DNA from: Ctena decussata
Taxonomy: Eukaryota; Mollusca; Bivalvia; Lucinida; Lucinidae
Assembly (NCBI GenBank): GCA_963989385.1
Contig: OZ022509.1
Location: forward strand, 55,347,431-55,411,430
Reading direction: 5' to 3'
DNA: 64,000 nt
Shown here: positions 2,347 to 61,407 of the stretch, in pieces
Layout of the letters: each line of letters starts with the position of its first letter
How positions within the stretch are numbered: the first letter of the stretch is position 1
The notes under the pieces: model-generated
Seen by the model: the letters and a program-made list of their open reading frames with translations, nothing else
Told to the model about the DNA's origin: nothing
Database searches by the model: none
Translations under genes and position numbers: made by a program

Positions 2347-2665
2347 CTTTGTCAGTTATAATTTCGGTTGGCACTCGTCCACCTGTTTTGAATATATCTT
2401 GGAAGGCTTTTGATACATCTTGTCCAGATTGATTTTTCAATGGTCTCAGCCATACATATTTTGAGAATGTATCTATCACAAGCATTATGAATTTATATCC
2501 ATCATTCCAGTCCTTATATTTCACCATGTCTATGAGGTCTGCCATCCAAAGGTCATCCTTGCCCGCGCTGACCACGTGGTTTCTTTTAAATCGTCTCCTA
2601 ACTGGTTTGTGAAGCCCATACGATTCTTGATTGTGTAAATAATGATAAAAGTTTAGATCCCTTAA

Positions 2666-3010: not shown

Positions 3011-4281
3011 TAAATAATAATAAAAGTTTAGATCCCTTAAAAACTTTCTTATTTTGTACATTCCAATGTTGAATTTGCCTTCATCTTTTATCACTTTTTA
3101 TTATATTCTGAGGGCCTGCAAAACTTGCTGGGTGTTTTGGATCATAATATATTTTCTTTAAGTAATCCTGCCAGGATGCCATGGCTTAATAGCTGAGTGT
3201 CTAAACAAGAAATGAGAAAAAGTTGAAATGTCAAACAGTTTTATTCGGAATCCTCCATCTCATCTTCATCTACCGAACTACTTTCATTGACTGAGCCGCT
3301 TTCATCATCAGAATCCATGTCATCTGCTTTGCACGTATATATATGTCTTCAAAAGCTTTGCTCTCTAGATCTTCCGGTACTTGTCCTCCTTTTCCTTCTT
3401 TGCGAAAGTGTTTAGGCTGATAGTCAAAGGTTTCATCATCGTCAGACATTTTTCTTTTTAGGCCTGCTTCCTCTCCCTCTGGGCACCATCCTCGTGTTAA
3501 ATGCCTTTGCACATCATGGGCTGTGTCAAATAACAATCCACAGCCGTCACAAGCCTGCGTTTTATCTGCCATGGTATCTTCTATTTCCGAATTTTCGTTG
3601 AAGTGAACAGTGTGTAGTCCAATTGAGGAATGATGTCCTTCAGTAAACGGGTCTTCTTTTATAGTTATCTGTTGTGGTTCTTGCACCTGATTGGCTGTTT
3701 CGTTTTTATGGGAAGTCATGCTATCAAAACGCTGCCATTCTAAATCGTATTTCAATCGATCGCTTTCATTTATGAATGGTTTTAAGTCCACTAGCAAATA
3801 GCCATAACAGTATTTGGTTGCTTTTTCAAATGCTTTCAGAAATTTATCACTATTTTTTGGGTAAATCTGACACTCAGTGATTGACGATCCACAGGATTAT
3901 TGTATAATATCAGATAGTGACAATTTCTCCTTTGAGTGGGATCTTTGTTTCCAAATATGTTTTGATTAATTGTTATCACAGATAGTGACCTATGGTGCGA
4001 CCCCTCTGTGAATAAATCTGTTATTCTTTTGTCTTTGCCAGATTCTTGGAACAAATCATCCATGATGAGCAAATTGTTAATTTGGGGATCAAAGAAGTCT
4101 TCATCATCTAAATCTGTTGGTATTCCTTGTATAAACTCTACTTTGGGTTGAACACTCTTTTGAATGTCATCATACAAGGGTTGCCATCGTTTATAGAGCC
4201 ATACTATTCTTTGTATATTAGGTCGGATTCTTTGGCCATGATTCAAGAGAAGTTTTTTCACAAATGTAGTCTTTCCACTTG

Positions 4282-4493
4282 CTGAAAAATAGAAAAAGAT
4301 CAAGACTTAAGATAAATAAACAGCTTTCAAAACATATTTAAGCGTATATTTATTTAGTCTCTGAAAGAAGAAGTTATGAAATGATCAATTTATACGTTTA
4401 TTTTTACACATTTATATGAGCTACACTTAAAGCAATATTTCAATGTTTGCACTAACGAATCTTAACAAAACAAATACTAAGAAAAATATATAC
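4282..4493 (-). other. Intron splitting the ATPase Walker A motif
   Basis: Donor ACAG/GTATATAT and acceptor TATTTTTCAG/CAAG on the minus strand. Splicing is phase 1 and creates an alanine codon across the junction, giving a standard GxxxxGKT Walker A. The intron is 212 nt. Confidence 0.8.
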
Positions 4494-4673
4494 CTGTAGG
4501 CCCCGAAATCATCATAGTGAAAGGGTGTTGAAACACCATGACAGATCTGTTACAAGCCTCAACTGGTGGTTGTTGTGGTTGACTCTGACATACCGGTAAA
4601 GCAGGATGAGGCATTTCCTCATGAGGAAGTGATGACACGCTTATCCGCGTCTGCTGCTGCAGTGCTTTGCCAA

Positions 4674-4911
4674 CCGCCAGAGGCGGTGGCGGTATGCCTT
4701 CCTGCGGCGGTGGCGGTATGCCTTCCTGCGGCGGCGGTGGTATGCCTTCCTGCGGCGGCGGTGGTATGCCTTCCTGCGGCAGCGGCGGTGGTATGCCTTC
4801 CTGCGGGGGCGGCGGCGGTGGTATGCCTCCCTGCGGCGGCGGCGGCGGTGGTATGCCTCCCTGCGGCGGCGGCGGCGGTGGTATGCCTCCCTGCGGCGGC
4901 AGCGGATACGC
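4674..4911 (-). repeat. Proline-rich minisatellite inside the ATPase gene
   Basis: About eight tandem units of 24-30 bp encode [G/E]GIPPPP(PP)Q on the minus strand. The tract is far more GC-rich than its surroundings, with G runs on the plus strand. It joins the N-terminal zinc finger to the ATPase domain and is probably a length-variable linker. Long open frames on the other strands here are by-products of the repeat. Confidence 0.85.
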
Positions 4912-5034
4912 TCCACTACTCTGCGGATACGCTTGATGGATTTTGCTGCCAGAATGTGCATTGCGTCTGTGCCTTAACATCACGTCTCTCCTTGACAGTA
5001 TTTTTGAACAGTCGGGGCACGATGTCTGGGACAT

Positions 5035-5579
5035 GTTGCTCCTCCGATGACTTACTTCAGAATGATAACGTGCTGCAACCTGTGTTGTTAAATCATTTTA
5101 GTAATGATTCTTCTATTTTTGAGAACCAATCAAATCCCTTCATTAAAAAACATAGTGCGCATGCGCTAAGGGGTTATCTATATACACCGGTTTTCAGGCT
5201 TAAGTTCATTAACAGAGTGACTACTCTCTTAAACGGATATATAAAATTGTTAAGAAGATATTTATGAAAAACCTTGAGAGTTCAACAATATAAGGTGACT
5301 GTTTTTGAAGTGTTTAGTCTCATTTGGTTCTTGTAGTCTCGCCTGTATTTATTTTTGATTAAGTAGGTCAATCATCTTGCTGAAAGTTTGATTATAAGCA
5401 GGATTTATAACATGTAACGTTTAGTCTCATCTGGTTTTTGTAGTCTCGCCTGTAGATCATTCATCTTTTTGAAGAATTGACAACAAAATTATAACCAGTG
5501 ATTACTCTGAGTATGCCGTTATTTACTTATCATTGCAAATAGTAATTCGATTTTTTTTTATTTCAGGTGCTGTATAATC
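5035..5579. promoter_or_regulatory. Shared upstream region of the divergent ATPase and polymerase genes
   Basis: These 545 bp separate two divergent Polinton genes, so a bidirectional promoter is expected. Visible features are a 30-bp-class direct repeat (GTTTAGTCTCAT..GTAGTCTCGCCTGTA at about 5318-5353 and 5420-5455) and a polypyrimidine tract with ATTTCAG (ending about 5566) just before the polymerase ATG. The last suggests that a 5'-UTR intron ends there. No confident TATA box was chosen. Confidence 0.45.
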
Positions 5580-8500
5580 ATGACGTATCGATGTGAAGAA
5601 TGCGGCTCCTCATTCCCAAAACTGAGTCAGCTTCTGCAGCACAGACGAACACAAAACCACTGGAAGAAGTACACTTGTTCGAGATGCAGTAAAGTATTCA
5701 ATAGAAAATCAAACCTTGATCGTCATTTGTTGAAACACGAAAATGAGAATTACTTTCACTGCCAAGAGTGTTCCAAAGTGTTCGTTAGTGAAAATGCCCT
5801 TGAAAATCACTTACTAAGGCACAAAAATCAGACTGGAGGAGCCGCTAAAAGGCCACGTGAAGAAGATGAGGGAGGACATAATAAGAAAATGAGGGCAGAC
5901 AGACTAAGTGATTCAGAAAACCTTTATAATATAGAGAAAGTGAGTGAAAGGAAGATAGAAAAGTTCAACACAACCGCCTCATATTATAAGATAACAGTTA
6001 AAGATATAGAAGTACAAGGAATACCTGAGATTTTAAAAACTTTAAAGAGACTATTCCAGTCTATAATCAACCGCATCGCTAGTGATATACCACCGAACGA
6101 CCTAATCAGACTTACCATGGATAACCCGGAACTCGATTATCCTATAGTTATGCCGTTTATGAGACGATCTGCTCTGACAGTAGATAGGACTTTGTCAGAA
6201 ATAGAACGTGTGTTACAGTCTTATGAACAATTTGTGTTAGATGAAACATTTGGTGTGGAATTCGTTCATGTACATTTATTGAAAGGAGCTGGCCAGAAGC
6301 GAAAACCCTTTGTTGACATCAGTAGACCCCAAGACAATAAAAGGAGTATCATACAAATCCGAAACAAAGATGAATTGTGCTGTGCTAGGGCTCTTGTCAC
6401 AGCTATGGCATGTGTTCAGAATCATCCACAATGGAACAATATAAGGCAAGGCCATAAGATTCAAGAACAATTGGCCAGAGACTTACATAGTAAAGCAGGA
6501 GTGCCATTGAAAGCATGTGACTTAGATCATGTCAAACAATTTCAGATGGTGTTACCTGACTTTCAGATTCACATCCTTTCCAAGGAACATTTTAATGCTA
6601 TTGTATATCAAGGATCTGAAGGTGGAATACCTGTATATCTTTATTATCATGATGAGCATTTTGATGTAATCACAAAAGTAACAGGTTTTCTAGACAGGAG
6701 TTATTTTTGTTTGCAGTGTAAGAAAGGGTATAACAATAAGGAAAAACACAGCTGCAACAATGCATGTCACTTTTGTAGACATATACACAATGATAAGGAG
6801 GAAGACTGGGTGCATTGCAAACATTGTAACTGTAAATTTGTCAATAAGACTTGTTATGATCTCCATTTGAAACAAACAATGTCTGGCAATTCAACTTGCA
6901 AAGCATACTTTAGATGTAAAGAATGCAATCAGTTGATCAATAAAGCAAAACATAAGTCAAATCATATCTGTGGGGAACAATATTGTAAAGTCTGTAAAGG
7001 TTACTTTGCGGAAGGTCATCTCTGCTACATGACCAGCGTAGAAGAAGAAAACTGCAAGCCTTATTCAAGGAAAAAGCAAATGAACTCTCTCAAATATATC
7101 TTTTTCGACTTTGAGTGTAGACAAGATGATCAAATTGAGTGTGACAAAGGTTATAGACCAAACAACAACAAGAAATGTTCCAACTGTGGTAAAGCGACAT
7201 GTGGATCATTTAGACATGTTCCAAATTTGTGTGTTGTGCACAAAGTCTGTGATGTTTGTCTTGATAGGCCCATCTTCCCAACGTGTAAATGTATTCATTG
7301 TGGACTGAACGAGCGGGTCTTTTCTGGTGCTGACACAATTGCTTTATTTTGTAAGTGGCTATTTTCCGAAGAAAATGTAGGGGCTACAGTAATATGTCAC
7401 AATTTTAAAGGGTATGACAGCTATCCAATTTTAAATTATCTGCACGAGAATGCTATTCTTCCAGAGGTGATAACGACAGGTTCAAAATACATGTCTATTA
7501 AGGTACCGGCCTGCAAACTTCGGTTCATTGATTCACTGAATTTCATTCCCATGGCATTAGCAGATATGCCTGAGGCTTTTGGGGAATCAGAATTAGCCAA
7601 AGGTTACTTCCCACATCTTTATAGTCGCAAGGAATTTCAAACAGCTGTTATTAATCACTTACCAGACATTTCGTTTTACAATCCAAATGGTATGAAACCG
7701 GAAACAAGAACAAAGTTTTTGCAGTGGTATGAGCAACATAAATTGAGCCATTTTGACTTCCAGAAAGAATTGCTACGATATTGCAGGTCTGATGTTGACA
7801 TATTGAGAAAGTGTTGCCTTAGACTTCGATCATTGTTTATGGATATGACAAAGAAGGAATCCACAGATGGCATTGATCCCTTTGAAAAATGCATTACCAT
7901 AGCTTCGGCATGCAATTTAGTTTTTAGAAAAAATTTCCTTGAGAATGAAACAATTGGAATCATACCCCCTCATGGATATCGACCTTCGGACAAGCAATCA
8001 GCTATGGCATATCAGTGGCTTTACTACTTGGCTCACAAAAAGAACTTGAGTATACAACATGGCAGAAATGCAGGTGAAAAGCAAATTGGACCTTACAAAG
8101 TTGATGGTTATTATGAGTCTGAGGAAGAATGCATTGCATTTGAATTTCATGGTTGCTTTTGGCATGGTTGTCCAAACTGCTTTTCAAGGACTACAATCAA
8201 CCCTGTGTCTCAGTTGAGTATGGAAGATTTATACACGCAAACAATGGAAAAAAGACAGTACATAGAATCGAATGGATACTCTTATGTATGCATTTGGGAA
8301 TGTCAGTTTAAAAAAGAACTTGAAACTGATGCTGCCATGAAACGTTACGTTGAGAATCTTGATTTTGTCACGCCTTTAGAACCAAGGGATGCTTTTTATG
8401 GTGGACGGACAGAGGCTTTTAAATTGTATGAGGAGGCTCAGCCAGGAAATCAAATCAAATATTATGATGTAACGTCCCTGTACCCTTTTGTCAACAAAAC

Positions 8501-9737
8501 TGGAAAGATTCCTCTTGGGCATCCAGATATCATCACAGAGAATTTTGAGCCGATTGACAAATATGAGGGTTTGATTAAATGTAAAATACTTCCACCTAAA
8601 GGGCTTTACATGCCTGTCCTGCCTGCAAGATGTAGTGGTAAACTCATGTTTAGCCTCTGTCGTTTGTGCAGTGAAGTTAATCAGAAGACTGCATGTAAAC
8701 ATACTGATGAAGAGCGTGCATTTGTTGGGACGTGGGTCACTGATGAGGTCAAAAAAGCAGTTTCTCTAGGATACAATCTTATGAATGTCTATGAGGTCTG
8801 GCACTTTTCAGATATATCTCAGTATGATCCTAGTACCAAAACAGGGGGCGTTTTTACCGAGTATGTCAATACATTCCTGAAAGTTAAACAAGAAGCAAGT
8901 GGGTGGCCTGACTGGTGTGTTGATGAGAGTACAAAGCACAACTACATTAAACAGTACTTTGAAAAAGAAGGCATCCATTTGGACTACAACAGAATTGAAG
9001 AAAACCCTGGGTTCAGGTCTTTGTCGAAATTGATGCTTAATTCATTTTGGGGAAAGTTTGGACAGAGATCAAACCTTACCCAAACAACTTACGTGGACGA
9101 TACCGAACGGTTTTTTGACATAATGACATCAGATCAACAAGAAGTAAAAAATGTACGTTTTGTTAGCAATGAGGCAGTACAGTTGGACTGGTGTTATAAC
9201 GGTGATTTCGTGGAGGCATCATCACGCACCAATGTTGTTACTGCTGCATATACTACAGCACAAGCCAGGCTCAAACTATTTAGTTACCTGGAACCCCTAG
9301 GGAGACGTGTTTGCTACTGTGACACTGATTCCATTATATTCACAACCTCCCGTGGTTTAAGGGAACCTAAACTGGGTGATTATCTGGGTGATCTGACTGA
9401 TGAAACACCAGGAAATGAAATTCTTAAATTTGTTACGGGTGGTCCAAAAAAATATGCATATACTTTAGCAAAACCTAATAAAAAGGGACAAACCTCTGTA
9501 TGCAAAGTTCGTGGAATCACTTTAAACTACAAGAACATGCTTGACATAAATTTTGAAACCGTTTCAAACATGGTTACAAACAACAGAGAGCAGGGCTGTA
9601 TTAAGGTTGTTGATGATAATAAAATATGCCGTTCAAATGGAGTTCTCATAACAAGGACTGAAACAAAAGACTACAGAATAGTATTTGACAAAAGAGTCAT
9701 CAAAGGCAATGTATGTACATATCCATATGGAATGTAA
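5580..9737 (+). CDS. Polinton protein-primed family B DNA polymerase
   Basis: A 1385-residue replicative polymerase (DNA_pol_B_2 class) that copies the element and probably uses protein priming. Domains in order: three C2H2 fingers (residues about 5-27, 33-53, 61-81); a basic KRPREED..HNKKMR stretch; a Cys/His-rich region (about 375-485); 3'-5' exonuclease motifs Exo I (FFDFEC, about 509), Exo II (CHNFKGYDSYP, about 605) and Exo III (YCRSDVDIL, about 733); an inserted Vsr-like endonuclease-type segment (FEFHGCFWHGCPNC, about 850); polymerase motifs A (YYDVTSLYPF, about 960), B (KLMLNSFWGKFG, about 1150) and C (CYCDTDS, about 1244); and GGPKKYAY (about 1287). No stop or frameshift occurs, unlike its neighbours. 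The start follows an ATTTCAG acceptor-like site by 13 bp. A recent copy or selection on the polymerase could explain its intactness. Confidence 0.95.
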   Translation: MTYRCEECGSSFPKLSQLLQHRRTQNHWKKYTCSRCSKVFNRKSNLDRHLLKHENENYFHCQECSKVFVSENALENHLLRHKNQTGGAAKRPREEDEGGHNKKMRADRLSDSENLYNIEKVSERKIEKFNTTASYYKITVKDIEVQGIPEILKTLKRLFQSIINRIASDIPPNDLIRLTMDNPELDYPIVMPFMRRSALTVDRTLSEIERVLQSYEQFVLDETFGVEFVHVHLLKGAGQKRKPFVDISRPQDNKRSIIQIRNKDELCCARALVTAMACVQNHPQWNNIRQGHKIQEQLARDLHSKAGVPLKACDLDHVKQFQMVLPDFQIHILSKEHFNAIVYQGSEGGIPVYLYYHDEHFDVITKVTGFLDRSYFCLQCKKGYNNKEKHSCNNACHFCRHIHNDKEEDWVHCKHCNCKFVNKTCYDLHLKQTMSGNSTCKAYFRCKECNQLINKAKHKSNHICGEQYCKVCKGYFAEGHLCYMTSVEEENCKPYSRKKQMNSLKYIFFDFECRQDDQIECDKGYRPNNNKKCSNCGKATCGSFRHVPNLCVVHKVCDVCLDRPIFPTCKCIHCGLNERVFSGADTIALFCKWLFSEENVGATVICHNFKGYDSYPILNYLHENAILPEVITTGSKYMSIKVPACKLRFIDSLNFIPMALADMPEAFGESELAKGYFPHLYSRKEFQTAVINHLPDISFYNPNGMKPETRTKFLQWYEQHKLSHFDFQKELLRYCRSDVDILRKCCLRLRSLFMDMTKKESTDGIDPFEKCITIASACNLVFRKNFLENETIGIIPPHGYRPSDKQSAMAYQWLYYLAHKKNLSIQHGRNAGEKQIGPYKVDGYYESEEECIAFEFHGCFWHGCPNCFSRTTINPVSQLSMEDLYTQTMEKRQYIESNGYSYVCIWECQFKKELETDAAMKRYVENLDFVTPLEPRDAFYGGRTEAFKLYEEAQPGNQIKYYDVTSLYPFVNKTGKIPLGHPDIITENFEPIDKYEGLIKCKILPPKGLYMPVLPARCSGKLMFSLCRLCSEVNQKTACKHTDEERAFVGTWVTDEVKKAVSLGYNLMNVYEVWHFSDISQYDPSTKTGGVFTEYVNTFLKVKQEASGWPDWCVDESTKHNYIKQYFEKEGIHLDYNRIEENPGFRSLSKLMLNSFWGKFGQRSNLTQTTYVDDTERFFDIMTSDQQEVKNVRFVSNEAVQLDWCYNGDFVEASSRTNVVTAAYTTAQARLKLFSYLEPLGRRVCYCDTDSIIFTTSRGLREPKLGDYLGDLTDETPGNEILKFVTGGPKKYAYTLAKPNKKGQTSVCKVRGITLNYKNMLDINFETVSNMVTNNREQGCIKVVDDNKICRSNGVLITRTETKDYRIVFDKRVIKGNVCTYPYGM

Positions 9738-10856: not shown

Positions 10857-12265
10857 CTACAAATAATAAACTTGGATATTAATTATAAAAATGAAGTAAT
10901 AAGGTGAAAATTCTTCTTCGCCTAGTAGCTAGGCTACCAAATAACCTGAATTCTTGTGTATGATAAAATGAGCCTTGTAAAGAGAAAACCTGTCTTCGGG
11001 GTTTCTTAACAAGTTTGACAAAACCTGCCTGCGTAGCCACAGAAAGTAGCTAGAGGCTTGAAATTTAATATATGGAATCTTAATACATCATACTAGCATC
11101 ATCGCAACGAACAACAAAGGCGCTGATTAGACAGCGGGGATGCACAGTCTTATCTGCGCCAGGGCTTCGACTAACTTTCAAAATTTGGAAGTCCAGACTT
11201 CCTCGTCTTTGCTTCTTCAAGGTGTTGAAATTTGATTTATGTGTTTACCGTGATGATTCATTGACGAGTTAGAGGGTTATCATGCGAACCGAACAACCAA
11301 CTAAATGTTTTGTGCCACTTCAGAAACTGAGGGTGAGGTTGGGCCTGTAAAATCGATTTAAGCCCCCCAGTAATTCATTACTGACCGTTCCAAGGCGGTA
11401 GTTCTGTTGTGGTTCTTTGTTGCCTGTTTTTGGTGTCAGAGTTTCTGTGGTGTTTTGCCTTATGTGTGTTGTTGTTGTTTTTGGTTCGGTTTGGGTTGCT
11501 GAGTGGCCACCTTTTGGGAACAAGCTGCTCACTCGGTTGGCCATATGTTCTCTGTATCTTGATTATTTGTAATCTTAGTTGTTTCCAACTATGGTTTGAG
11601 GGCTGGATTTGGATTTTGATTGTTTCAGTTCCTGGTCTTTGCAAATTTTTTACTTTTTTTCCATGGTGTCAGATTCGGACGTAGTGAGAGAATTTTTTGG
11701 AAGTCCGAAGTTTAAAGGAATGACTTATGCATGGTTATTTTTACCTCACCCCCCCCCCCCCCCCCCCCCCCCTCCTTACACATCCCTCTCTCTCTCTCGG
11801 GACAAGATCGAACGGCCGTATGTGACAATTATCGGGCGTATGCAAGACGCCAGAGGTCTCATTTCTCGACTTACGGGAGCAAATCCTGGGCGTAATATAC
11901 GGTCATACGCCCGTTAACGGAAGCCCTGAATTTTTCTGCACAGTTGTTGTTCACATATGGCATAAACAGGTTTTCTCCTGATGAGGCTCAAATGAAGATT
12001 TTTCAGTAGCCAACCTTAATATATGTACAGGTATAGTATACCTGTAATTGAGAGTAAATCAGCAACACTTTACTAGCCTAGAGGCACAGGGTGAATGTAT
12101 GGCTAGCGGGCTGGTGCCAATTTCAACCACTTCGTTTTTCCCTCGTTCAAGGAAACTGATGTAGCTGTATTCTGCAAACAGAACATGTGTTTGGCTTTCT
12201 GGCATTCATGAAATGAAAGAATTTGTTGTACAAAAAATGACCTTAGGGTTTCAAACATTAGCACC
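10857..12265. other. Repeat-rich stretch without a recognised gene
   Basis: Apart from a C24 run (11,749-11,772), the stretch has two segments repeated elsewhere in the window: 11,325-11,400 (inverted match at 49,725-49,800) and about 11,600-11,645 (inverted match at about 60,560-60,610, inside the TIR element). Frames at 11,320-11,917 on both strands show no domain and are interpreted as chance. Confidence 0.45.
11749..11772. repeat. Poly-C run (C24)
   Basis: An uninterrupted run of 24 cytosines followed by CT dinucleotides. It has i-motif/G-quadruplex potential and is a likely place for length errors in assembly. Confidence 0.9.
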
Positions 12266-16417: not shown

Positions 16418-18980
16418 ATGGCGTCTGGAACAAGGAAACGATCATATACACGTTCTGAAGTGCTTGATGCGATTTTTCAAGACAGTGACAGTGGGGGAAA
16501 TCAGTTAGAAAGTGATTCAAGCGATTCGGACAATGGGTCCAGTGCCTCTTTGGAGTCGCAAAGTGAACATGAGACCGACAGGTCAGACCCAGACTCAGGT
16601 GAGTGGTACTTTTAGAACCAAATTTTAGGGTGTCATATAATAAAAAGCATGTTGCATGTTATTGCCAGACTGCATTCATAATAACAGTCAAAGATGTTTC
16701 TTGCATGTTTACCTTATATTTTCAGCATGCAAAATGCATTTATTTTGCAGAGCAAAAACATGTACGAAGCAAAACAAAACAAGTATAACCTTGAAAAAAA
16801 AAAAGATGGCGCAGAGTGCTGATTTGAAAGTTAGCATATTTTAACATTATTGTGCATGCTATTGTCAACTATTGGCTGTGCATGCATGATCTTGTTAAAA
16901 AACTTGAATCTGCCAATTTCATGCTTCAGATAATGACAATGACCCTGGGGACCGAGGGGAGAGGGGAGGATCCAGGGGTAGGCGTGGAAGAGGTCGCGGT
17001 CGTCCTCGTGGACTTGGTCGTATACAAAGAGGACAAAATGTTCCTGGGCGAAACGTGCACAGAGCCAATGGCCATCGTAAAAAACTTAAATCTGCCAATT
17101 TCATGCTTCAGATAATGACAATGACCCTGGGGACCGAGGGGAGAGGGGAGGATCCAGGGGTAGGCGTGGAAGAAGTCGCGGTCGTCCTCGTGGACTTGGT
17201 CGTATACAAAGAGGACAAAATGTTCCTGGGCGAAACGTGCACAGAGCCAATGGCCATCTTGGCCATGCCCCAAGGATGCAGATCAACCGACCTCGGTGTG
17301 GCAGAATTGCAAACAGAGGGGGCCGGGGTAATGCTAATGTACAGAATGGTCAGGGTCAGCTGCCGAGACAAGGAGGGATCTTGAACTTGGAGCCATATGA
17401 TATTATAGATCCGTTTGAGAGTGACTGGTTACCAGATTACACACAAAGAAGAGGAGTTCTTGTTGATGCATCTGATTTCAAACCAGTTGATTATTTCAAG
17501 CTATTTTTTCCGGACAGTGCATTTGATCTCATTGCACGGGAAACAAACAACTATGCGATGTATTTCTTGGAAAATCCGATAGACCTTCCGCGGCATTCAA
17601 GATTTTCAAGTTGGGTAGACACCGATCCAGATGAGATACGGGCCTATACAGCATTGCAAATTGCAATGAGATTTTGCCAGAAAAATGCATTCGCAGACTA
17701 CTGGGGGAAATACTGGCTCTCTGCAGTACCATTTTGGGATGTAATGTCGAGAAACCGGTTTGAACTAATAACTTCGTTTCTGCACTTTGCAGACAATACT
17801 GCTGACAGACCTGAAAGAGGCCAGCCAGGACATGATCCTTTGTGGAAAGTAAGGCCACTTTTGGATCTCTGTGAAGAAAAATATACAACAGTTTACACCC
17901 CGACATGTGAGTTGTCCATTGATGAAAGTATGATAAATTTCAAAGGACGGGTACATTTAAGACAGTACCTACCCTCAAAACCATATAGGTGGGGAATAAA
18001 ACAATATGCCCGTTGTGAAAGCAAAACTGGCTATGCATTAAAACTCATTACTTACTGTGCATTAAAACTCATTACTTACTGTGGAAAGGGCTCTCAGGAA
18101 CTAGTACCAGGATTTTCTATCACAGAAAGTAATTGTCTCTCACTGTTGGATGGATATGATAATCGCGGTCACAAAGTTTTTACGGACAATTACTACACAT
18201 CTCCGTTACTGTACCAGGAACTGGAGAGAAGAGGGATTGGTGCATGTGGCACTGTTAAAGTAGAAGGAAATTCATGCCTTTGGATTAACATCCATATAGA
18301 TAACATCTAGATAAAGGTGACGACCCTGTATTTATGAGGTGTGACAATTTAGTAGCCTGCGCCTGGCACGACACAAAACGTGTCCATTTTCTTTCAACAA
18401 TAGCTACAAACAATACTTTAGAAAAAAGAATGAGGTCCAGAGGTGCTGAAGGGCGGCACAGGTTAGTTGAGAAGCCTGTAATGGCTGAAATATATAATCA
18501 GCATATGGGAGGAGTGGACATAATGGATCAAAAGCTAGGAACTTTTGCATTTCCGCATAAAAACTCAAAGTGGTATTCTGCCATCTATCACAGACTTCGT
18601 GAAGTTGCTCTAACGAACGGATATACTGTGTACTGTCAATCAAATCCAAATGAGTACCACCTAAAGCCTTCAGAGAAAACGTAATAGATGGTCTTCTGCA
18701 AGGGTATGAGAAAAAGAAGTCAAAAGTTGGACGCCCAACAAGTGTAGAGCAACCCTTGCGGTTAACGGAACGACATTTTGTCACGCAACATGAAGACCCA
18801 AAACATAAACCAGACTGCGTTGTGTGTAGTAGCAGGACAAAACAAGGATGGAAGAGAAAACAAACCAATTATATTTGTAGGCAGTGCAACTTGCCAATGT
18901 GCTTTATTCCATGCCATGAAATCTACCATACATACATTGACTTTCACGCAGCTGCAGCGAACATTGTGTACAATATGTAA
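16418..18980 (+). pseudogene. piggyBac transposase
   Basis: A DDE transposase (DDE_Tnp_1_7 class) that cuts and reinserts the element at TTAA. Exon 1 (16,418-16,598) starts MASGTRKRSYTRSEV and is acidic/serine-rich, ending at GTGAGT. A downstream exon encodes an Arg/Gly-rich stretch (GRRGRGRGRPRGLGRIQRG). Core motifs are LSIDESMINFKGR (first Asp), VFTDNYYTSPLL (second Asp) and GGVDIMDQ (third Asp region). The C-terminus has a Cys-rich finger (CVVCSSRTKQG, CRQCNLPMC, PCHEIYHT). Damage: a 182-bp tandem duplication of the RG exon, a 24-bp in-frame tandem duplication (ALKLITYC twice, about 18,034-18,081), a frame break at about 18,285-18,312 and another near 18,680. Confidence 0.92.
16906..17271 (+). 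repeat. 182-bp tandem duplication in the transposase gene
   Basis: The acceptor CATGCTTCAG plus the following Arg/Gly-coding exon occurs twice with a 182-bp period (exon starts 16,930 and 17,112). The copies are nearly identical. Only the second runs on into the catalytic domain; the first is followed by GTAAAA, which could serve as a donor. Confidence 0.9.
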
Positions 18981-39533: not shown

Positions 39534-39800
39534 ATGGCACAAGCGCAGTTAGATGCCGAAAATTTTTCGTTGCAATCTGATGATTTCTTAAACGTAATCT
39601 GTGAATTTCCACAAAGAAGGATAATGTGTTCTTTAGACAGCAATACATGCTTAATTATAAAACGGACGAGGAAAACTACATATATTTTTCTCAGGAAAGG
39701 AAAAACGTATATAAAACTAAGCCCGGAAATTTTTGAATTGATTTGTGACGCTAAAGTTAGTGTTTCTTTTCTTCGGTCATTCTTAGAACATAACATTTAA
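39534..39800 (+). CDS. Small 88-residue protein, possibly PC4-like
   Basis: Preceded by the acceptor-like TTTCATGCAG at about 39,510. It encodes a β-rich middle ([20 protein letters not shown]) and then [12 protein letters not shown], an arrangement resembling the second half of the PC4-like fold. A short acidic frame follows on the same strand at about 39,853-39,945 ([17 protein letters not shown]) after a TTTTGTAG site and may be a further exon. It lies tail to tail with the capsid relic, touching it. Identity uncertain. Confidence 0.45.
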
Positions 39801-40600
39801 AGGCTGTTTAAAAAATGAAAGTCAGACAATGAAGTTCTGCATATATTTTGTAGAAAATGATCTAAATGCAGGCGAAGAGATGGATGATTCAGAGTTAGAC
39901 GCAGCATTGGTAGAAATTCAGTGTAACGAGGAACACAACAACTAGCTGTCGTTTCTGAAGTGTAGTATTTGAAATAAGAGTTAAGGCAGAATGCTGGAGA
40001 ACTTCTATACTGTTTCAACTTTACATCGACTTGATTCAGTATATACCTGGACATGGTAAATAAATCATGAAATATAGGTCCTTGAAGATCTACACATTTT
40101 GACTCAGCAATAAATTTTGTCCTTTCAAACAGTCCGGTATTTGTACCAGAAGGATCTACTACACTCCGATTGGTATGCTTTATGAACAGCTGGGTGGTTA
40201 GAAGCGAAGATTTGGCATCTTGACCATTAGTTAATAAAGTTTCTATCATGGCAAGATATGGGTTATAATTACAAGTGATTACAGCTTTGTTTTGCAGGGT
40301 GACTTCGGTAGATGAAAACAAAGCTTGTAAAACTAAATTTACTGGGCCAGTCTTTTCCGTTGATACTAACTTGTTTCCATTAGCCTTTAGTACTCTTAAT
40401 TTCACATAGAGCTGGGATCCTTTCAAATCCAAATAGTCCATAGAGTTTTGACCACTAATTCGAAAGGGCTGTCACCTGATATTTGAGATACTGGTCGAAT
40501 TTCTTGTAGATGAACATCATTAACAGCCACCTGAGTGGGCGGAAGATCAAACAAAGCCAATTCCCTTTTGACACGTTTCAATTTTTAGATTTATTTCCTG
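39797..40600 (-). pseudogene. Polinton major-capsid-like protein (F54H12.2 type), truncated
   Basis: The N-terminal part, in a slightly different frame, reads ELALFDLPPTQVAVND. Then, after a one-base break near 40,455, the frame runs [20 protein letters not shown], later [16 protein letters not shown], and [15 protein letters not shown]. These are the hallmarks of the nematode F54H12.2-type proteins found in Polintons, which I take to be the double-jelly-roll capsid protein. The C-terminal half is missing or out of frame after [10 protein letters not shown]. It follows the small basic ORF directly, as in other Polintons. Confidence 0.75.
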
Positions 40601-40922
40601 GTTTCAGCTGTTTAGATTTCTTAGTGACTGAAGTCCGTTTGTGTCGACGTGTATTAGACTTCTGACTTAAATTCATCACAGAGTCTGGTTTTATAGTTTC
40701 TCGTTTTAATTCGCTCACAGCTTGTTGAACCGTCTGTTCTGCTGGTGTTACTGATTGAACTGGCATATTTTCAGGCTTGGACTCAATAGCGATGTATTTA
40801 TCAAGCGGTAATATTTTTTGAGTCCTTCCTCCACCACTTTGTTTAACTTTTGCGACTTTATCGAAGAAATTTACCCACTTTTGTGGATTTGGAATATATA
40901 ATTTAGAGGGGTTGATAATCAC
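40578..40922 (-). CDS. Small basic Polinton protein
   Basis: A 114-residue frame that begins with NPSKLYIPNPQKWVNFF and ends in a Lys/Arg-rich tail (RRHKRTSVTKKSKQLKPGNK). A protein of this size, with an IPNPxxWxxF start and basic end, commonly sits between the penton-like and capsid genes of metazoan Polintons. A role in the particle or in DNA binding is inferred. It overlaps the end of the penton-like frame by about 20 bp. Confidence 0.55.
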   Translation of the reverse strand: MIINPSKLYIPNPQKWVNFFDKVAKVKQSGGGRTQKILPLDKYIAIESKPENMPVQSVTPAEQTVQQAVSELKRETIKPDSVMNLSQKSNTRRHKRTSVTKKSKQLKPGNKSKN

Positions 40923-41358
40923 TGTAAAACGGATATTGCTTGAAATGAAATGTCATGTACAAGGGTGAATCCAAAAATGATGCAAATGAACCATCTTCAC
41001 ATTTTATAAACACTTCAAACTCTAGAACTTTTCGTTTAACTGGAAGATAAAAAATGTTATCGAAAGAATAGCTCCATCCATGATCAGTGTTCTTTTGTAG
41101 AAGCCTTAGCAGTGGTCGCTGTTCTCCATTGACAATGCTTTCTTTGCAGATATTTGTAAATAGATATAAAGCAGTTGATCCATGCGAAAGAGATAATCCT
41201 ATATTATTTTGTATGTTTGCGTGAAATTCAGCGAGACCAACTTTCCAAAAACCTTTGAACTGTAGCTGTGTTTTTAAATGAAATCGAAATTTGAACGGTT
41301 GATTATCTGAAAAGTAATTATTGCTTTCATCACTTTTCACATAAACATAACGATCCAT
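40903..41358 (-). CDS. Polinton penton/minor-capsid-like protein
   Basis: 151 codons from ATG at 41,358. It contains FHLKTQLQFKGFWKVGLAEF, the G-x-W-x-VGL-x-E signature of the Polinton minor capsid (single jelly-roll) protein, then LYLFTNIC..GEQRPLLRLL, and ends in MTFHFKQYPFYSDYQPL. The length fits a compact member. The frame is continuous with the integrase chromodomain upstream, with no stop codon between, so the two form one open frame of 287 codons. Whether that is a real fusion or loss of the integrase stop is unknown. Confidence 0.72.
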   Translation of the reverse strand: MDRYVYVKSDESNNYFSDNQPFKFRFHLKTQLQFKGFWKVGLAEFHANIQNNIGLSLSHGSTALYLFTNICKESIVNGEQRPLLRLLQKNTDHGWSYSFDNIFYLPVKRKVLEFEVFIKCEDGSFASFLDSPLYMTFHFKQYPFYSDYQPL

Positions 41359-42455
41359 TCTTAACTGTCGACCGTTTCTTACATCTTTGACATCGGAAGC
41401 ATCTACCCAAGAATTAAAACGGTCAGCAAAACCTTCCCATTTCACATAATACTGAAGTTTCTTATTTTTCTTTCTTTTCTTGAGGATAGTTTCAATGAAC
41501 CATAAACTTGTTTTTTCATCCTTATCTACTCTTTGTAACTCAGAGGTATAAAACAACCCCTTAATATGGTCACTTTTTAAATCCACCAGTTTATACATTG
41601 GTATTCCTTGCTTTAAAAGTCGGCCAGAGACTTTAAAAACTTCGGTTGTATATTGATCCTGATAGGCTCTCCTTAATGGCTGTTTGACGAAACTAATTCT
41701 CACAAGATCACCAACTTGGAATTGAGGTTTTCGCTTTGGCATACTTTTTGGTTTCTTCAGATACATGAAAAGCCCAGAGATCAGCCTCGTTGCCTTTCTT
41801 TACATCATTGAGTGCAATATAATTCAAACTGCGGTGTGGTGTTGAGTTGTAATTAGCGACTATGTTATCTAGGTCATCAATATAGCGATAGCTTCCTTTC
41901 CGTCTCATCATGCGAAATAAATATGTACGTGTAGTACGTTGCGAGCGTTCAATAAAATTTGGCTTTACAGGATTTTGCGTAGTAAAATAATAAATATCAT
42001 TGTCCTTCATGTATTTCTTAAACCACTGATTATTGAACTCAGATCCCTTATCAGATCTTATCTTCATTGGTTTCTGTTCAGCTAGAATTTCCTGCATAGC
42101 AGTGAGAACGGCTTTCGCAGTTTCATTCTTTAGTGGTTTAACCCATAACTTTCTTGAAAATATGTCAATTGCACAGAGCAAATAGTGAATATCGTCGTTA
42201 TCTTTTGCTCAGTTAATGACGGACATTAAGTCCACGTCAAATTGTTCACCAATATAAGTAACTCTTACATTTGCAGTTTGGAATCTATGACGTATCTGTT
42301 TTTGGAGTGAGTATGAATCTTGACTGTTCAACCATCGTTTGATAAAGGTAAGGCTAAACTGTCCTGGATATCGCTTGGCAAGTACCCTGAAAACTTTGTA
42401 TGGTCCTGAAAAAGCAGCCGCATTTTTGGGATTGAAATAGTATTAAGTATTTTTT
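41359..42455 (-). pseudogene. Second Polinton chromodomain integrase, decayed
   Basis: N-terminal FNPKNAAAFSGPYKVFRVLA and WLNSQDSYSLQKQIRHRF, then FDVDLMSVIN with the first catalytic Asp and an immediately following TGA (42,210-42,212). A one-base shift at 42,180-42,183 leads to CAIDIFSRKLWVKPLKNETA, RSDKGSEFNN (second Asp) and NFIERSQRTTR (Glu). The frame changes again near 41,740 before the chromodomain (YYVKWEGFADRFNSWVDASD). The sequence is clearly diverged from the integrase at 1476, so this is a different Polinton lineage and not a duplicate. Confidence 0.87.
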
Positions 42456-55964: not shown

Positions 55965-56129
55965 CAGTGGCGGATCTTGAGGGGATTCGGGGGGTTCAAA
56001 CCAACATCCCTCTCAGACCAAATTATCTTATTTTCATGGGGAATTTCAGAAAAATTGGTCAAACTGCTCAAATTGAACCCCCTCTGCTAATCTGAACCCC
56101 CCTATCTAAAATTCCTGGATCCGCCCCTG
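55965..56129. mobile_element. MITE with CAGTGGCGGATC-type ends
   Basis: The left end CAGTGGCGGATCTTGAGG pairs imperfectly with the right end CCTGGATCCGCCCCTG. GATCTA flanks both sides (55,959-55,964 and 56,130-56,135). It is 165 bp with C/G-rich internal tracts and resembles hAT-type MITEs by its ends only. Confidence 0.75.
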
Positions 56130-56387
56130 GATCTATTTGTGTCTTGTGTTTATTTAAATTCTACACTAATGTGCTTGAACAAGACAAAACATTGACAGCA
56201 TGACTACCATATGAAACATTTAAGGTGTATACTTACATTTGCTCTTTCTGAGGTTATTATTTCCGCACATTTTATATTTTGAGATAAAGATGCTTGAAGA
56301 CACTTGCATTACAATAAAGATGACAGAATGGGTCAATCATCACTAAGCTATACAGAAAGAAATAAGCAGATACATACACATTCTCAC

Positions 56388-56415
56388 CAAATGCAATTTC
56401 GACACTTTGTCCCTG
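56388..56415 (-). pseudogene. 3' part of the disrupted membrane-protein exon
   Basis: These 28 bp continue the coding frame of 60,914-61,237 on the other side of the inserted element, and end at TTTG/GTGAGA, a consensus donor. The paralogous exon at 34,165 also ends shortly after its PCxH motif with a GT donor. The match in frame and donor position supports insertion into a coding exon. Confidence 0.75.
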
Positions 56416-56526
56416 AGTAGTATATAATGTAGATGATGCCCCAGTGTTATGATCATATTTTCGGAGGAAATGATCATATTCGATGAAAAGGTTTGACCCG
56501 GTCAGCGACCCGCGAGCGACATTTCG
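56416..56526 (+). repeat. Left terminal inverted repeat
   Basis: 111 bp, from AGTAGTATATAATG to GCGACATTTCG. It differs from the right copy by a 5-bp insertion (after GATGATGC) and one or two substitutions. It contains a doubled TGATCATATT motif and an open frame that runs in from 56,483. Confidence 0.92.
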
Positions 56527-56650
56527 CTCCGCTACCGCTCTGGTGAATATCGTTTCCCCAGGCAGAGAAATTTTCGTGAGTCAGAACAATATTAAGATAT
56601 TATTGGTATATTCGATACTTAAAAGCGAAAGTTCTGATAAGCTTCTAAAT

Positions 56651-56789
56651 ATGGAACATACACAAAATGAAAAATATATTTTCTTTTATGGGGCTGAATC
56701 TGTCTTTAGTCAGTTTCATTCGTGTAAATTTTTAGAAGCGGAGAAAGAATTCACCTGCATGGAACAGTACATGCATTATCACAAAGCAG
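56651..56789 (+). CDS. NADAR-domain first exon
   Basis: From ATG 56,651 the exon encodes NEKYIFFYGAESVFSQFHSC and KEFTCMEQYMHYHKA. The F(Y/W)G..S.FSQF pattern followed by EQYMxYxKA is the N-terminal signature of the NADAR family (YbiA-like, COG3236). These are small enzymes acting on riboflavin intermediates or ADP-ribose-linked substrates, some of them removing ADP-ribose from DNA. The exon ends at GCAG/GTAAGG. No frame with the rest of the domain was found downstream. Joining to either acceptor at 57,540 or 58,016 would meet a stop almost at once, so the exon may now act as an untranslated or truncated leader. It is transcribed inward from the left terminal repeat. Confidence 0.7.
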
Positions 56790-57059
56790 GTAAGGAAATG
56801 TGATTGATAAGAATTATGTTTAAATTCTTTGTTCTGATCAAACTGATGAAACAATACCGTTAAGCAAATACTTTGAAAACGGAGGAACTTATAGAATCTA
56901 ACTTTAATCTTATCTTTATCTATGCACAATGTACAATGGATGGAAGGCTTGTAATTTTACGTCCTTCTCAGCAGTATTTCAGTTATATCGGGATGGTAGG
57001 GAAATAATGAAAGGTTGTGTGCAACGGCACCACGTTTACGATTGAAAAGATTCTTGCCT

Positions 57060-57131
57060 TATGCGGGGATCGAACCCGAGACCACTAGATCAGCAGGCCA
57101 ATGCTTAATCTACTGGCCTATTGGGGGCTCC
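57060..57131 (-). repeat. tRNA-like SINE head inside the element
   Basis: The minus strand reads CCAATAGGCCAGTAGATTAA (A-box region) and TCGGGTTCGATCCCCGCATA (B box). It is flanked by non-tRNA sequence and was probably acquired by the element. Confidence 0.6.
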
Positions 57132-57544
57132 ATAACGTACAATAAAAATGTAAATCTTAGTGGTCAGTTGTTGTAGTGAAAACAATTATATTTAGACTAA
57201 TTTAAACACTGTTGAGATGAATATTTCTGCGCTTATAAATTACTTTGTCTTTCGATTACACGCTACACGCTAGAGCAGGCTGAAACTACGACTGAGGAGA
57301 GAAAAAAGTAAAAGTAAAATAAATAAACAAACAAGGAAAAAAAACACGTTAACTGTAAGTTGTCTTTTTAACAATACATTTTAACAGTTTTTATATCTTG
57401 ATTTTTTTTAAAGTATTCGTTTTTACATTTTAAATTCATTCCTTTTATTCGTTTTGTTAAAGTTCTTCTAACGATTTTCGAACTGGTGTCGCTTATTAAG
57501 GATTAATATTAAGATGAATTTATTCGTTTGCGTTGCAGATCATT

Positions 57545-57961
57545 ATGGCAGCTAGACTGGAAGATCTGAGCGTGAGCATGCTAATTACCACTCTGTTTCA
57601 AGCAGCACGGATATCCGATGTAGCAATCCGTGAAATTGTTGTGAAACTCCCTTCTTTGCTATTGGAACAAATACGAGGAAACTTGTATGATAATCGTACC
57701 GATATCATAACTGCGTTTGAAATTGACTGGGTTCTAAGATCTATTAAGGACCAGCGCAACTGTAGTTTCCCTCAACTAGACCAAGATTTAGACGGTTTAT
57801 GTACGAGGACAATAGTGAGGGAATGCGCCCATCTTACCATCGATGAAATAAAACAATATTTGTCGCAGATGACAAACGCTCAACTGCACATTTTGGTACT
57901 TTATTTTCCTAGGGGTGTGTGGAGGCAGACGCTTAGAGCAGTTTTAAGATCAAGACGATAG
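57545..57961 (+). CDS. Unknown 138-residue protein, cargo frame 1
   Basis: ATG at 57,545 lies 5 bp after an acceptor-like GCGTTGCAG. The protein starts MAARLEDLSVSMLITTLFQA, is rich in Leu/Ile and probably all-helical. It contains VVKLPSLLLEQIRGNLY and EIKQYLSQMTNAQLHILVLY and ends in a basic RQTLRAVLRSRR. No family is recognised. The frame has no lesion. It is followed after 54 bp by a second acceptor and frame 2, so both may be made from one promoter by alternative 3' splicing of a leader. The helical LP..LLEQI pattern might suggest a protein-interaction adaptor, but this is only a guess. Confidence 0.62.
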   Translation: MAARLEDLSVSMLITTLFQAARISDVAIREIVVKLPSLLLEQIRGNLYDNRTDIITAFEIDWVLRSIKDQRNCSFPQLDQDLDGLCTRTIVRECAHLTIDEIKQYLSQMTNAQLHILVLYFPRGVWRQTLRAVLRSRR

Positions 57962-58019
57962 GATTGTATTCTCTTTTTTTTTTCTCGTATATATAATGTG
58001 TGTATTTTGTTACAGAACA

Positions 58020-58964
58020 ATGGCTCTGAAAAGGAAAGACACTGAAGTGGACCAGATGGTGAAGAACAAAACACTCAGATTGTCGGATGATATGGAAATA
58101 AAAGAAGACTCTTTACTGCTGAGCAGCAAGATTAACGCGGAAATGTGCATCACCTTAGCGTATGACCACATAATGAATGAATACGTAATATGTGTAAACA
58201 AAGAGACAGAATCAAAACAAACGTCCGTCGCACTTTCGGAGGAGGAAATTTCTCCCCTTATAGAGAAGCTGCCTTTGGCAGTTATGGTGGGGAAAAAATA
58301 TCTGAACAAAAAATCGGTGCGACCGATAGACATTCCGTTTGAGTTAATGAAAATCAATAACAGAAACGAATACTGGGCAGTTTTGTTCGGGAAAGAGAAT
58401 TTATACGGAAAAGGTGATAGCATGGTACTTGACTTGAGAAAATGCGGGAAAAATGAAAAGGGAAGCTACATCTATACTAAATGCGGGGTTAGGTTTAGTC
58501 TAGATGTAGCCAACCCTATTGGATTAGCCCTGAAAGAGTGTAAAGACAAAATAGACCAAATTTCCGAGAGCAGCCTTATGCTATTTAAGGCTGCCGAATG
58601 CGTTTTAATAGTAAAAGGCATCAATGAGTTGTTTACGCAAGCCAGTAAAGATTGTAACGGCTGCGCAATCAATCGTAGCAGTCAGCTGCAACACGCTGGA
58701 TCGTCAGGGTGCGCGAAAGCGTGGGACGAGATAGTCGATGACTACTGGGTCCCAGCTTATGCGCATGTCCAGCCTGAGGCGCTGTTTGCTCTGGCAGAAA
58801 AGGCGTCAGCAAACTTGGAAGAACTTCATGGCAATTTATTTTCGTCCTCACAATCCCCTATACAGCGGGCGAGTGAGGATGAAATAAAGTCCATGGTGTT
58901 AAAGTTTCCGGATTCGGAGAAAAATCAAATGATTCTGGCTTGCGAATACGAGGCTTCGTTGTAA
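58020..58964 (+). CDS. Unknown 315-residue protein, cargo frame 2
   Basis: ATG at 58,020 follows TTTTGTTACAG/AAC. The alternative ATG at 57,996 lies in the presumed intron and is not preferred. The N-terminus is basic (MALKRKDTEVDQMVKNKTLR). Two β-strand-then-helix stretches (EYVICVNKETESKQTSVALS; YIYTKCGVRFSLDVANPIGL) faintly recall the PC4-like proteins elsewhere in the window. A Cys/His cluster follows (CNGCAINRSSQLQHAGSSGC), which looks metal-binding and resembles short C-x2-C..SQ..H motifs in orphan proteins of animal virus-like elements (from memory). The frame is uninterrupted. Nuclear, nucleic-acid-related activity is inferred from the basic start and the cluster. Confidence 0.65.
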   Translation: MALKRKDTEVDQMVKNKTLRLSDDMEIKEDSLLLSSKINAEMCITLAYDHIMNEYVICVNKETESKQTSVALSEEEISPLIEKLPLAVMVGKKYLNKKSVRPIDIPFELMKINNRNEYWAVLFGKENLYGKGDSMVLDLRKCGKNEKGSYIYTKCGVRFSLDVANPIGLALKECKDKIDQISESSLMLFKAAECVLIVKGINELFTQASKDCNGCAINRSSQLQHAGSSGCAKAWDEIVDDYWVPAYAHVQPEALFALAEKASANLEELHGNLFSSSQSPIQRASEDEIKSMVLKFPDSEKNQMILACEYEASL

Positions 58965-59020
58965 GCGTGTACATTAACTTTTATCACCGATTACAACCTC
59001 CTTATTTTTCTATACAAATC

Positions 59021-59070
59021 ATAAGTTGTGTCCCCTCATTAGAACCCTCTCCTGAGGAGACACAACCTAT
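59021..59070 (+). terminator. 3'-UTR hairpin after cargo frame 2
   Basis: ATAAGTTGTGTCCCCTCA and TGAGGAGACACAACCTAT pair over 18 bp with two imperfect positions (one G-U type) and a 14-nt loop, 57 bp past the stop. An AATAAA lies further on at 59,149-59,154. The hairpin could stabilise or process the transcript. Confidence 0.6.
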
Positions 59071-59329
59071 GTTTTATCGGAGAAATAAGAAAAAATATTT
59101 CTGAAGTATCCCTTCCTTATCTGTAGCTGGGATAATATATATGCATATAATAAACTGATATACAGTTTTCATCTTTGTTTCGTTTTGTTTTTTTGGTTGT
59201 GCAGGGTTTTTAGATGACGAAGCGTATAAGAAGATCGGTTTTTTTTTCTAGTTTCTTCGTAGAAAAAAACTAGAAAATGTGTTTATGAAACACTATGCCC
59301 CCAACCATATGCTTGTCTCTAGAGAAGGT

Positions 59330-60320
59330 TCATCCAATAATGCTTGTACCTTTGTACCATAGGCTTACAATGCACTAAGTCGAAAAAGGGGCTTAACTCA
59401 GTCAAAAATTTACGTATTGTTTTTGAAAGTTAATCAGGTCATCTACACCTTGGGCAATATCAACCTGCAAAAATCATGATCCTAGCATCAGGGGTTCTCC
59501 AGATATTTTGTTCACAAGCTTCCATAGGCAAATAATGCACTAAGTTGAAAAAGGGGCATAACTCAATCCAAAATTTACAAATTATTTCAAAAGTTAATCA
59601 GGTCATCTACACCACAGGCAGTATCTTCCTGCATAAAATCATGCTCCTAGCATCAGGTGTTCTTGAGATATTTTGTTCACAAGGTTCCATAGGCTAACAA
59701 TGCACTAAGTCGAAAAAGGGGCATAACTCAATCAAAAATTCATGATTTCTTTTCAAAAGTTAAGCAGGTCATCTACACCAGAGGCAGTATCTTCCTGCAA
59801 AAGATCATGCTCCTAACATCAGGGGTTCTTGAGATATTTTGTTCACAAGGTTCCATAGGCTTACAATGCACTAAGTCGAAAAAGGGGCATAACTTTGTCA
59901 AAAATTCAAGAATTTGTTTCAAAAGTTAATCAGGTCATCTACACCTTGGGCATTCTCATCCCGCAAAACCTCATGATCCTAGCATCAGGGGTTCTTGAGA
60001 TATTTTGTTCACAAGTTTCCACAGGCTAAGTTGAAAAAGGGGCATAACTCTGGAAATACATTGCCAGCGGAAAAATAAAAAAATACGGGTCTGCTTATTT
60101 TCCATACTGATCATGTGTATAAAGTTTCAAGTTCCTAGCTCTTATTGTTCTTGACTATATGTTAGGGTACCTTTGTACCATAGGCCTCAATGCACTAAGT
60201 GGAAAAAGGGGAATAACTCGATCAAAAATTCACGAATTTTTTTCAAAAGTTAATCAGGTCATCTACACCACAGGCAGTATCTTCCTGCAAAAAATCATGC
60301 TCCTAGCTTCAGGGGTAATT
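59330..60320 (+). repeat. Tandem array of about 165-bp units within the element
   Basis: About six units recur with TGCACTAAGTCGAAAAAGGG (59,371; 59,536; 59,701; 59,867; a shortened one near 60,024; 60,191), followed by AAAAGTTAATCAGGTCATCT and TCAGGGGTTCTTGAGATATT. Divergence between units is moderate. Similar text at 14,060-14,460 shows this is a genome-wide simple repeat that the element has captured or that seeded its own array. Confidence 0.88.
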
Positions 60321-60808
60321 TAATTACATTTTTCGTATGATTATATTTTGAGATAAAAAAAAAAACTTTTTAGGTACATGCGTCGCGGTTTTATCTTTGT
60401 GACACTCTAAATTGAAAACAATTATGGTCTGTATTTTTAAAATAATTTCTCACAATTTTAAGTTCTTATTAGCTATAGTAATTAAACTCACCCGTCATTC
60501 GATGTGCGTTCCTGCTGGATTTCCGTACAGTTGTGAGATTTAATCTCCTTGTCAGAAGGAAAAAGTATGCAAAGACCAGGAGCTGAAACAATCAAAATCC
60601 AAACCCAAACGTTTTTCCGCATCCGAAACAAAGCACAGCCATTGTAATTTTTTTATATTTTAATTCACTTTTATTAAACACTGGACACTATTCTGTATAA
60701 ATCTGAAATGCACTACAATAAGTTAAAAAAAATCTCTATGCCCTGAGGAAACGTATGTTTATATTCAAAAACTCGCTGATATAATCTCCAGTATATTAGT
60801 GTTAGTTC

Positions 60809-60913
60809 GAAATGCCGCTCGCGGGTCGCTGACCGGGTCAAACCTTTTCATCGAATATGATCATTTCCTCCGAAAATATGATCATAACAGCATCATCTAC
60901 ATTATATACTACT
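60809..60913 (-). repeat. Right terminal inverted repeat
   Basis: 105 bp, inverse of 56,416-56,526, ending CATTATATACTACT immediately before TCCCTG. Confidence 0.92.
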
Positions 60914-61237
60914 TCCCTGATCTAATTTGACGTGCTGACACGGTAACCAAGTGTCATACTGAGATGTTTCTTCAACATAAATGAAACTGACATTCTTTAA
61001 CGCTATAAGATTAAGTGTCACATGTTGCAGTCTATCAAAGTCAATTCTCTGAATGTCAGCATAAGATTCACTTTTCCCGGGTGTAACTAATCCTTCTATA
61101 TGGAAAATACATTCAAGTTCACGGTATAATATTTTAATAGAGCACACATCTTCCAAAAACTCTACACAAACAATACTGCTGCATAAAAAACCCGAAAATA
61201 TCAAGATCATGAATATAATACAAGTTTTTAACGCCAT
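60914..61237 (-). pseudogene. N-terminal exon of a secreted/membrane protein, copy 2, disrupted
   Basis: Start ATG at 61,237 gives a clear signal peptide (MALKTCIIFMILIFSGFLCS). It continues CVEFLEDVCSIK, FDRLQHVTLNLIALKNVSFI and LPCQHV. The FDRLQ..NL..N(V)..PCxH pattern matches the exon at 34,165-34,471. The exon is cut by the TIR element at TCCCTG, with its last 28 bp now at 56,388-56,415. Read into the element it meets a stop after a few codons. Conserved Cys suggest an extracellular disulfide-bonded domain. The family is not recognised. Confidence 0.72.
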
Positions 61238-61407
61238 TTTTTCGGCACAAACCGGGTTGTCTGCCCCTGGGATAAAGTCCAACACTTATAGGCTAGTTGC
61301 ATAATAACCGTGTCTGTATGTTGGGTAAGATGTTTAACCCATATCCGCATCTGCACCTACGTTAGAATATTATGAAGCACTTATATATCAGCAAAATAAA
61401 CGTCGTA

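Follow-up and report, generated by a model that had tools for sequence, protein, structure and literature searches.

How does an element with the ends of a Maverick (Polinton), a giant virus-like transposon, come to lack the genes that would move it, and where do the genes that it does carry come from? These questions are raised by a locus in the bivalve Ctena decussata, within a stretch of 64,000 nucleotides on contig OZ022509.1 (positions 55,347,431 to 55,411,430), which we refer to as the window. The element in question occupies window positions 56416-60913, 4,498 bp in total. An earlier note on this DNA had described it as a short, non-autonomous Polinton derivative whose cargo, a NADAR gene and two conserved frames, was special to it. 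Our analysis indicates that the element is very probably non-autonomous and derived, by loss of its interior, from a Maverick family in the same genome, and that its genes form the accessory arm of that family.

The element has Maverick ends and no core genes

The element is bounded by terminal inverted repeats of 111 bp on the plus strand (56416-56526, first bases AGTAGT) and 106 bp on the minus strand (60808-60913, last bases ACTACT), which are one substitution and one 5-bp indel apart. The left repeat holds three palindromes, TATGATCATA (56448), ATGATCAT (56470), and TGACCCGGTCA (56494). Directly outside the repeats lie two copies of TCCCTG (56410-56415 and 60914-60919, neither assigned a strand) that agree at 6 of 6 positions, a 6-bp target-site duplication of the Maverick/Polinton type. 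Both the inverted ends, given earlier as 105 to 111 bp, and the perfect duplication are as the earlier note had described them. The termini satisfy the (AGT)2//(ACT)2 motif that is most often found in vertebrate Mavericks, in which the duplications are likewise 6 bp long and the end repeats range from 46 to 1447 bp (PMC8097293). A scan of the whole window for AG-starting end pairs that are spaced 1.5-30 kb apart, differ at no more than 7 of 24 positions, and are flanked by an exact 6-bp duplication returned nine pairs, the element and eight others. These eight sit in, or at most 60 bp from, ~323-bp tandem arrays, and their apparent duplications are all self-complementary (AGTACT in seven, ATATAT in one).

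Nine open reading frames (ORFs) of at least 60 amino acids (aa) were listed for positions 56001-61400, seven of them inside the element. Pfam scans of all seven, with ORF2 and ORF3 taken from their ATGs, produced a single match with an E value below 0.01, a NADAR exon, and none to PolB, integrase, ATPase, or capsid proteins. Nine proteins of the full-size Maverick described below likewise found no match in the element at E 0.001; reading of the element by eye in six frames covered 56416-57600 and 58941-60913. The reported absence of polymerase, integrase, ATPase, and capsid genes is upheld by both searches, and because the Maverick core genes are missing, the element is a derivative and not a full Maverick. 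Its length also falls outside the 12.7-24.6 kb range of intact vertebrate Mavericks, which carry core genes with accessory genes beside them (PMC8097293).

A full-size Maverick in the same genome shares its ends and arms

We searched the host genome (1,657,992,415 bases in 245 contigs, in which the window is C12:55347431-55411430) with the 111-bp end. At least nine matches were obtained, comprising three pairs and three single, weaker matches. One pair, on contig C2, matches at 100% and 99%, with its members 22,510 bp apart and a perfect TGTAAT on both sides. Reading this copy as separate pieces, we found a 376-aa frame with an rve integrase domain (36.2 bits; cut-off, 32.6) and a chromodomain (32.8 bits; cut-off, 25.1), as well as a frame that spans 1584 aa or more and has C2H2 fingers in its N-terminal region. 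The latter aligns with a PolB encoded elsewhere in the window over 128 residues at 32% (E 8e-16) and, in its N-terminal part, at 19% (E 1e-4); the PolB profile gave no match to this frame, and we therefore call it PolB-like. An A32-like ATPase scores 21.2 bits, below the cut-off of 22.8, and aligns with the window's ATPase frame at 32% (E 9e-19). Further C2 frames match the second Maverick of the window at 28-51%, and capsid proteins were not identified among the frames of the C2 pieces. The C2 element is a full-size Maverick of the same genome with ends in common with the window element. The genome search suggested in the earlier note has thus recovered such a relative, and the claim of a non-autonomous Polinton/Maverick derivative stands on ends that match a copy bearing an integrase, a PolB-like protein, and an ATPase.

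Both arms of the window element are colinear with this core-bearing copy. Element positions 1-2854 (56416-59269, plus strand) are 98.3% (L004) and 98.2% (L016) identical to C2, and positions 3901-4498 (60316-60913, no strand assigned) are 98.7% identical (L005), gaps excluded. Most of the 59 gap columns in the latter, 0.6-kb alignment are probably due to what is apparently a ~52-bp insert in the window copy, at element positions 4141-4192, where the C2 arm is shorter. This stretch (60556-60607) also has a 52-bp inverted match of 90% at window positions 11604-11655. Between the arms, the core is replaced by a junction stretch of 1046 bp (59270-60315, no strand assigned) that has no match in the C2 pieces and consists mostly of a ~166-bp tandem array (59357-60316). 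By coordinates, the deleted core corresponds to about C2:96620353-96638542, or ~18.2 kb.

The C2 copy has the NADAR exon, ORF2, and ORF3 beside one end and in the same order, and ORF2 and ORF3 are therefore accessory genes of the Maverick family; the idea that they are cargo special to the short element has to be given up. The two elements are alike in their ends (99-100%), NADAR exon, splice sites, ORF2 (98%), ORF3 (96%), and both arms. They differ in that C2 spans 22.5 kb with the integrase, PolB-like protein, ATPase, and more genes, whereas the window element is without the ~18.2 kb and has the 166-bp array.

The accessory module comprises two new protein families and a NADAR-derived exon

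ORF2 (57545-57961, plus strand) encodes 138 aa predicted to be all-helical, with a helical structure model at a predicted local distance difference test (pLDDT) score of 69.6, and has a relative elsewhere at 71% (P0002). ORF3 (58020-58964, plus strand) encodes 314 aa with a zinc-binding-like motif, CxGCxIxxxSQxxHxGxSGC...VDxYW. Its C2 copy is an open frame, and its relatives elsewhere are P0001 at 71% and P0003 at 41% (4 member sequences, perhaps copies or repeated deposits). One relative comes from the sequence bin of a clam symbiont, in line with a bivalve host. The elements C-x-G-C, SQ, H-x-G-x-S-G-C, W, and V-D-x-Y-W are common to the three ORF3 proteins. ORF2 and ORF3 are two new protein families within the Maverick accessory module.

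The ratio of non-synonymous to synonymous substitution rates (dN/dS) for ORF3 is 0.247 against C2 (14 synonymous and 14 non-synonymous changes) and 0.150 against the copy on C18 (70.5 and 53.5 changes, respectively). ORF3 is under purifying selection. ORF2 gives ratios of 0.345 (135 codons) and 0.254 (85 codons) against two C18 copies. The description of both frames as conserved is borne out by their relatives and by the dN/dS of ORF3. Functional searches of ORF2 and ORF3 against PHROGs, NCBIfam, and PDB returned nothing significant, and ORF3 gave a Pfam row for DUF1330 at E 0.22. P0003 scored 13.5 bits against PC4/p15 (cut-off, 25), a score reached by 6 of 200 shuffles and not significant, and the PC4 row was absent for ORF3 and P0001 in Pfam. 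A nucleic-acid-binding role of ORF3 may be taken as a weak lead.

The NADAR match is a first coding exon of 46 codons plus 1 nucleotide (56651-56789, plus strand; Pfam E 0.0013). It covers profile positions 1-49 of 163 and scores 19.5 bits (cut-off, 35.1), so that only the N-terminal part of the ~163-position domain is present, and the NADAR gene reported earlier reduces to this one exon. Directly after it, at 56790, stands a splice donor, CAG/GTAAGG, the element's only plus-strand MAG/GTRAG, where ~0.27 would be expected at equal base frequencies. Exon and donor are retained in all three copies examined (L004, L006, and L008), and the exon of the C2 copy is 100% identical to that of the window element. 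On the acceptor side, ttgcag/ is followed by six bases (57539-57544, plus strand) before the ORF2 ATG and is one of 17 acceptor-like sites in the splice-site scan. It is retained in L013, L014, L016, and L018 and, with surrounding changes, in L020 (cag in 5 of 5). The ORF3 acceptor, gttacag/, precedes bases 58016-58019 (plus strand) before the ATG; it was read by eye, having fallen below the pyrimidine cut-off of the scan, and its cag is retained in the same five copies. These conserved signals suggest that the NADAR-derived leader exon is probably spliced to the acceptor before the ORF2 or ORF3 ATG.

Other copies have lost their cores in different ways

The third end pair lies on C18, where ends matching at 96% and 94% are 16,454 bp apart between AAAATT and AAAGTT (5 of 6 positions); the right end of this copy reads GGTAGT. 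The single, weaker matches are on C11 (82%), C10 (85%), and C7 (79%). With the nine C2 proteins as queries, no match was found in the C18 pieces (all but ~1.4 kb of C18 read), one PolB scrap was found between the arms of C7, and decayed PolB pieces were found in C10 and C11, the latter additionally with an integrase scrap. The core is open in C2 only among the six loci with these ends or arms. ORF2/ORF3-type arms occur at both ends of the C18 copy, with ORF3 of the left arm split across two frames, and the C7 and C10 copies are full of stops. Inside the C18 Maverick copy, we also observed Penelope-like RVT_1 and GIY-YIG frames (L013 and L014; C18:19557500-19570500), and at C10:43927915-43933322 (L018 and L019), several partial ORF2-ORF3 units are repeated in a row.

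In a genome search with ORF3, 60 candidates were scored and yielded at least 41 matches, of which many are fragments. Four distant matches (31-32%), on C2, C6, C14, and C3, are free of stops. The distant open relatives (L022, L023, and L024) represent a wider family; no C2 core proteins were found in three of the four loci.

Origin and possible mobility of the short form

In the reading that we consider very probable, the element is a Maverick derivative with an internal deletion. Comparison with C2 shows that it has retained both ends, the 2.85-kb accessory arm (NADAR leader exon, ORF2, and ORF3), and, of the other arm, 0.6 kb. The core that lies between the arms in C2, ~18.2 kb with the integrase, the ATPase, the PolB-like protein, and further genes, is gone, and the 166-bp tandem array occupies the junction. 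An integrase from an intact relative would join the AGTAGT/ACTACT termini to a site cut with a 6-bp stagger, generating the duplication, and because the short form has kept its ends, such a relative could copy and integrate it in trans. We call this mobilization possible only, since no second copy of the short form was seen among the at least nine end matches and a later deletion would look alike. The excision mechanism of Mavericks has been reported as unknown (PMC2836005). ORF2 and ORF3 are probably both expressed from one transcript, with the leader exon spliced to the acceptor before each ATG, and would serve the Maverick family.

Several observations weigh against parts of this account. 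No second copy with the junction of the window element was seen among the at least nine end matches, where the earlier note had looked to many 4.5-kb copies as the mark of a family. The comparison of the array with C2 was made only with the BLAST low-complexity filter on. Once spliced on as a leader, the NADAR exon would place its ATG, and with it an upstream frame, ahead of ORF2 and ORF3, which should impede both. ORF2 differs from its C2 copy by 0 synonymous and 3 non-synonymous changes, which yield no ratio, and the synonymous/non-synonymous counts of the NADAR exon (0/0, 1/2, and 0/1) are too few to show selection.

The single junction among three pairs and three single matches also favors a history in which a full-size insertion at this site later lost its core, with expansion of the 166-bp array at the breakpoint or into it, and the short form never moved. 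This shortening in place overlaps with the deleted-derivative reading on what the element is and differs on when it was cut, and we give it close to an even chance. The different, independent losses in other copies (a PolB scrap in C7, decayed PolB in C10 and C11, and none in the C18 pieces read) point the same way, and nothing decisive opposes it, as the intact duplication and near-identical ends fit both histories. A rather unlikely alternative is that core-less forms are a recurrent, trans-mobilized class of satellites that are kept because ORF2 and ORF3 pay. The open core in only one of six loci, the lack of core matches in both C12 (the window element) and C18, the lone PolB scrap in C7, the ORF2/ORF3-type arms at both C18 ends, and the purifying selection on ORF3 are consistent with such a class. 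However, the Penelope-like genes and split ORF3 of C18 and the many stops in C7 and C10 speak for decay as much as for upkeep, and it may be that ORF3 is selected solely within full-size copies. It is similarly unlikely, though conceivable, that arm-only Mavericks constitute a recurrent satellite class here. They would keep the ends of their helper together with a conserved module, in which splicing joins the NADAR leader exon to ORF2 or to ORF3 and whose products would act on helper or host, and full-size relatives of the C2 kind would copy and integrate them in trans. Phage satellites use phages much as arm-only Mavericks would then use their full-size relatives. Finally, ORF3 has no assigned family and could in principle be the recombinase of a new autonomous element, but the same ends bound the rve-integrase element on C2, in which ORF3 is an accessory gene, and this largely refuted reading is very improbable.

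Comparison with known elements

Vertebrate Mavericks resemble the window element in end motif, 6-bp duplication, end-repeat length, and the possession of accessory genes, but they are longer, have core genes, and carry other accessory genes (PMC8097293). Nematode Mavericks also carry genes unrelated to transposition, the wosp and krma cargo genes; these are different genes, and that report describes them as cargo of Mavericks, not of a core-less form (PMC10680173). Shortened Mavericks of 600-4500 bp are reported from Mayetiola destructor as polymerase or integrase pieces only (PMC8504770), whereas the window element is without the core and its arm genes are open. NADAR has been reported in mobile elements, namely a Gypsy retrotransposon of Ectocarpus and, by Repbase matches, ORF1 of a Tx1 long interspersed element in a bivalve, the Pacific oyster (PMC12477816). 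In those cases, the domain is part of a retrotransposon protein, while here a DNA element carries it as one leader exon.

With the window element and C2, a single genome holds both a core-less derivative and a full-size relative that has the same ends and 98-99% identical arms, and trans-mobilization of Mavericks therefore becomes directly testable. The two copies also reveal an accessory module in a Maverick lineage, made of two new protein families, with ORF3 kept by selection, and an exon that derives from a NADAR gene and carries a splice donor.

Other features of the element and window

A putative tRNA-like short interspersed element (SINE) with the B-box GGTTCGATCCC was read from the minus strand at 56985-57135, limits approximate; ARAGORN made no call there. 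Downstream of ORF3, a strong hairpin lies at 59020-59071 on the plus strand (z -6.86; none of 200 shuffles equally stable), followed at 59149-59154 by AATAAA, a possible polyadenylation signal and one of 10 plus-strand A[AT]TAAA sites.

The window contains further mobile elements. An incomplete Maverick at 1479-9737 has an rve integrase (29.9 bits; cut-off, 32.6), a chromodomain, an open 1385-aa PolB, and an A32-like ATPase below cut-off; the window scan found no end repeats for it. A second Maverick fragment at 39800-42439 has an integrase, a chromodomain, and a 214-aa frame, and the C2 integrase is closer to this fragment (45-47%) than to the first Maverick (34-35%). At 17237-18310, we identified a piggyBac-type transposase frame (DDE_Tnp_1_7, E 2.8e-58).

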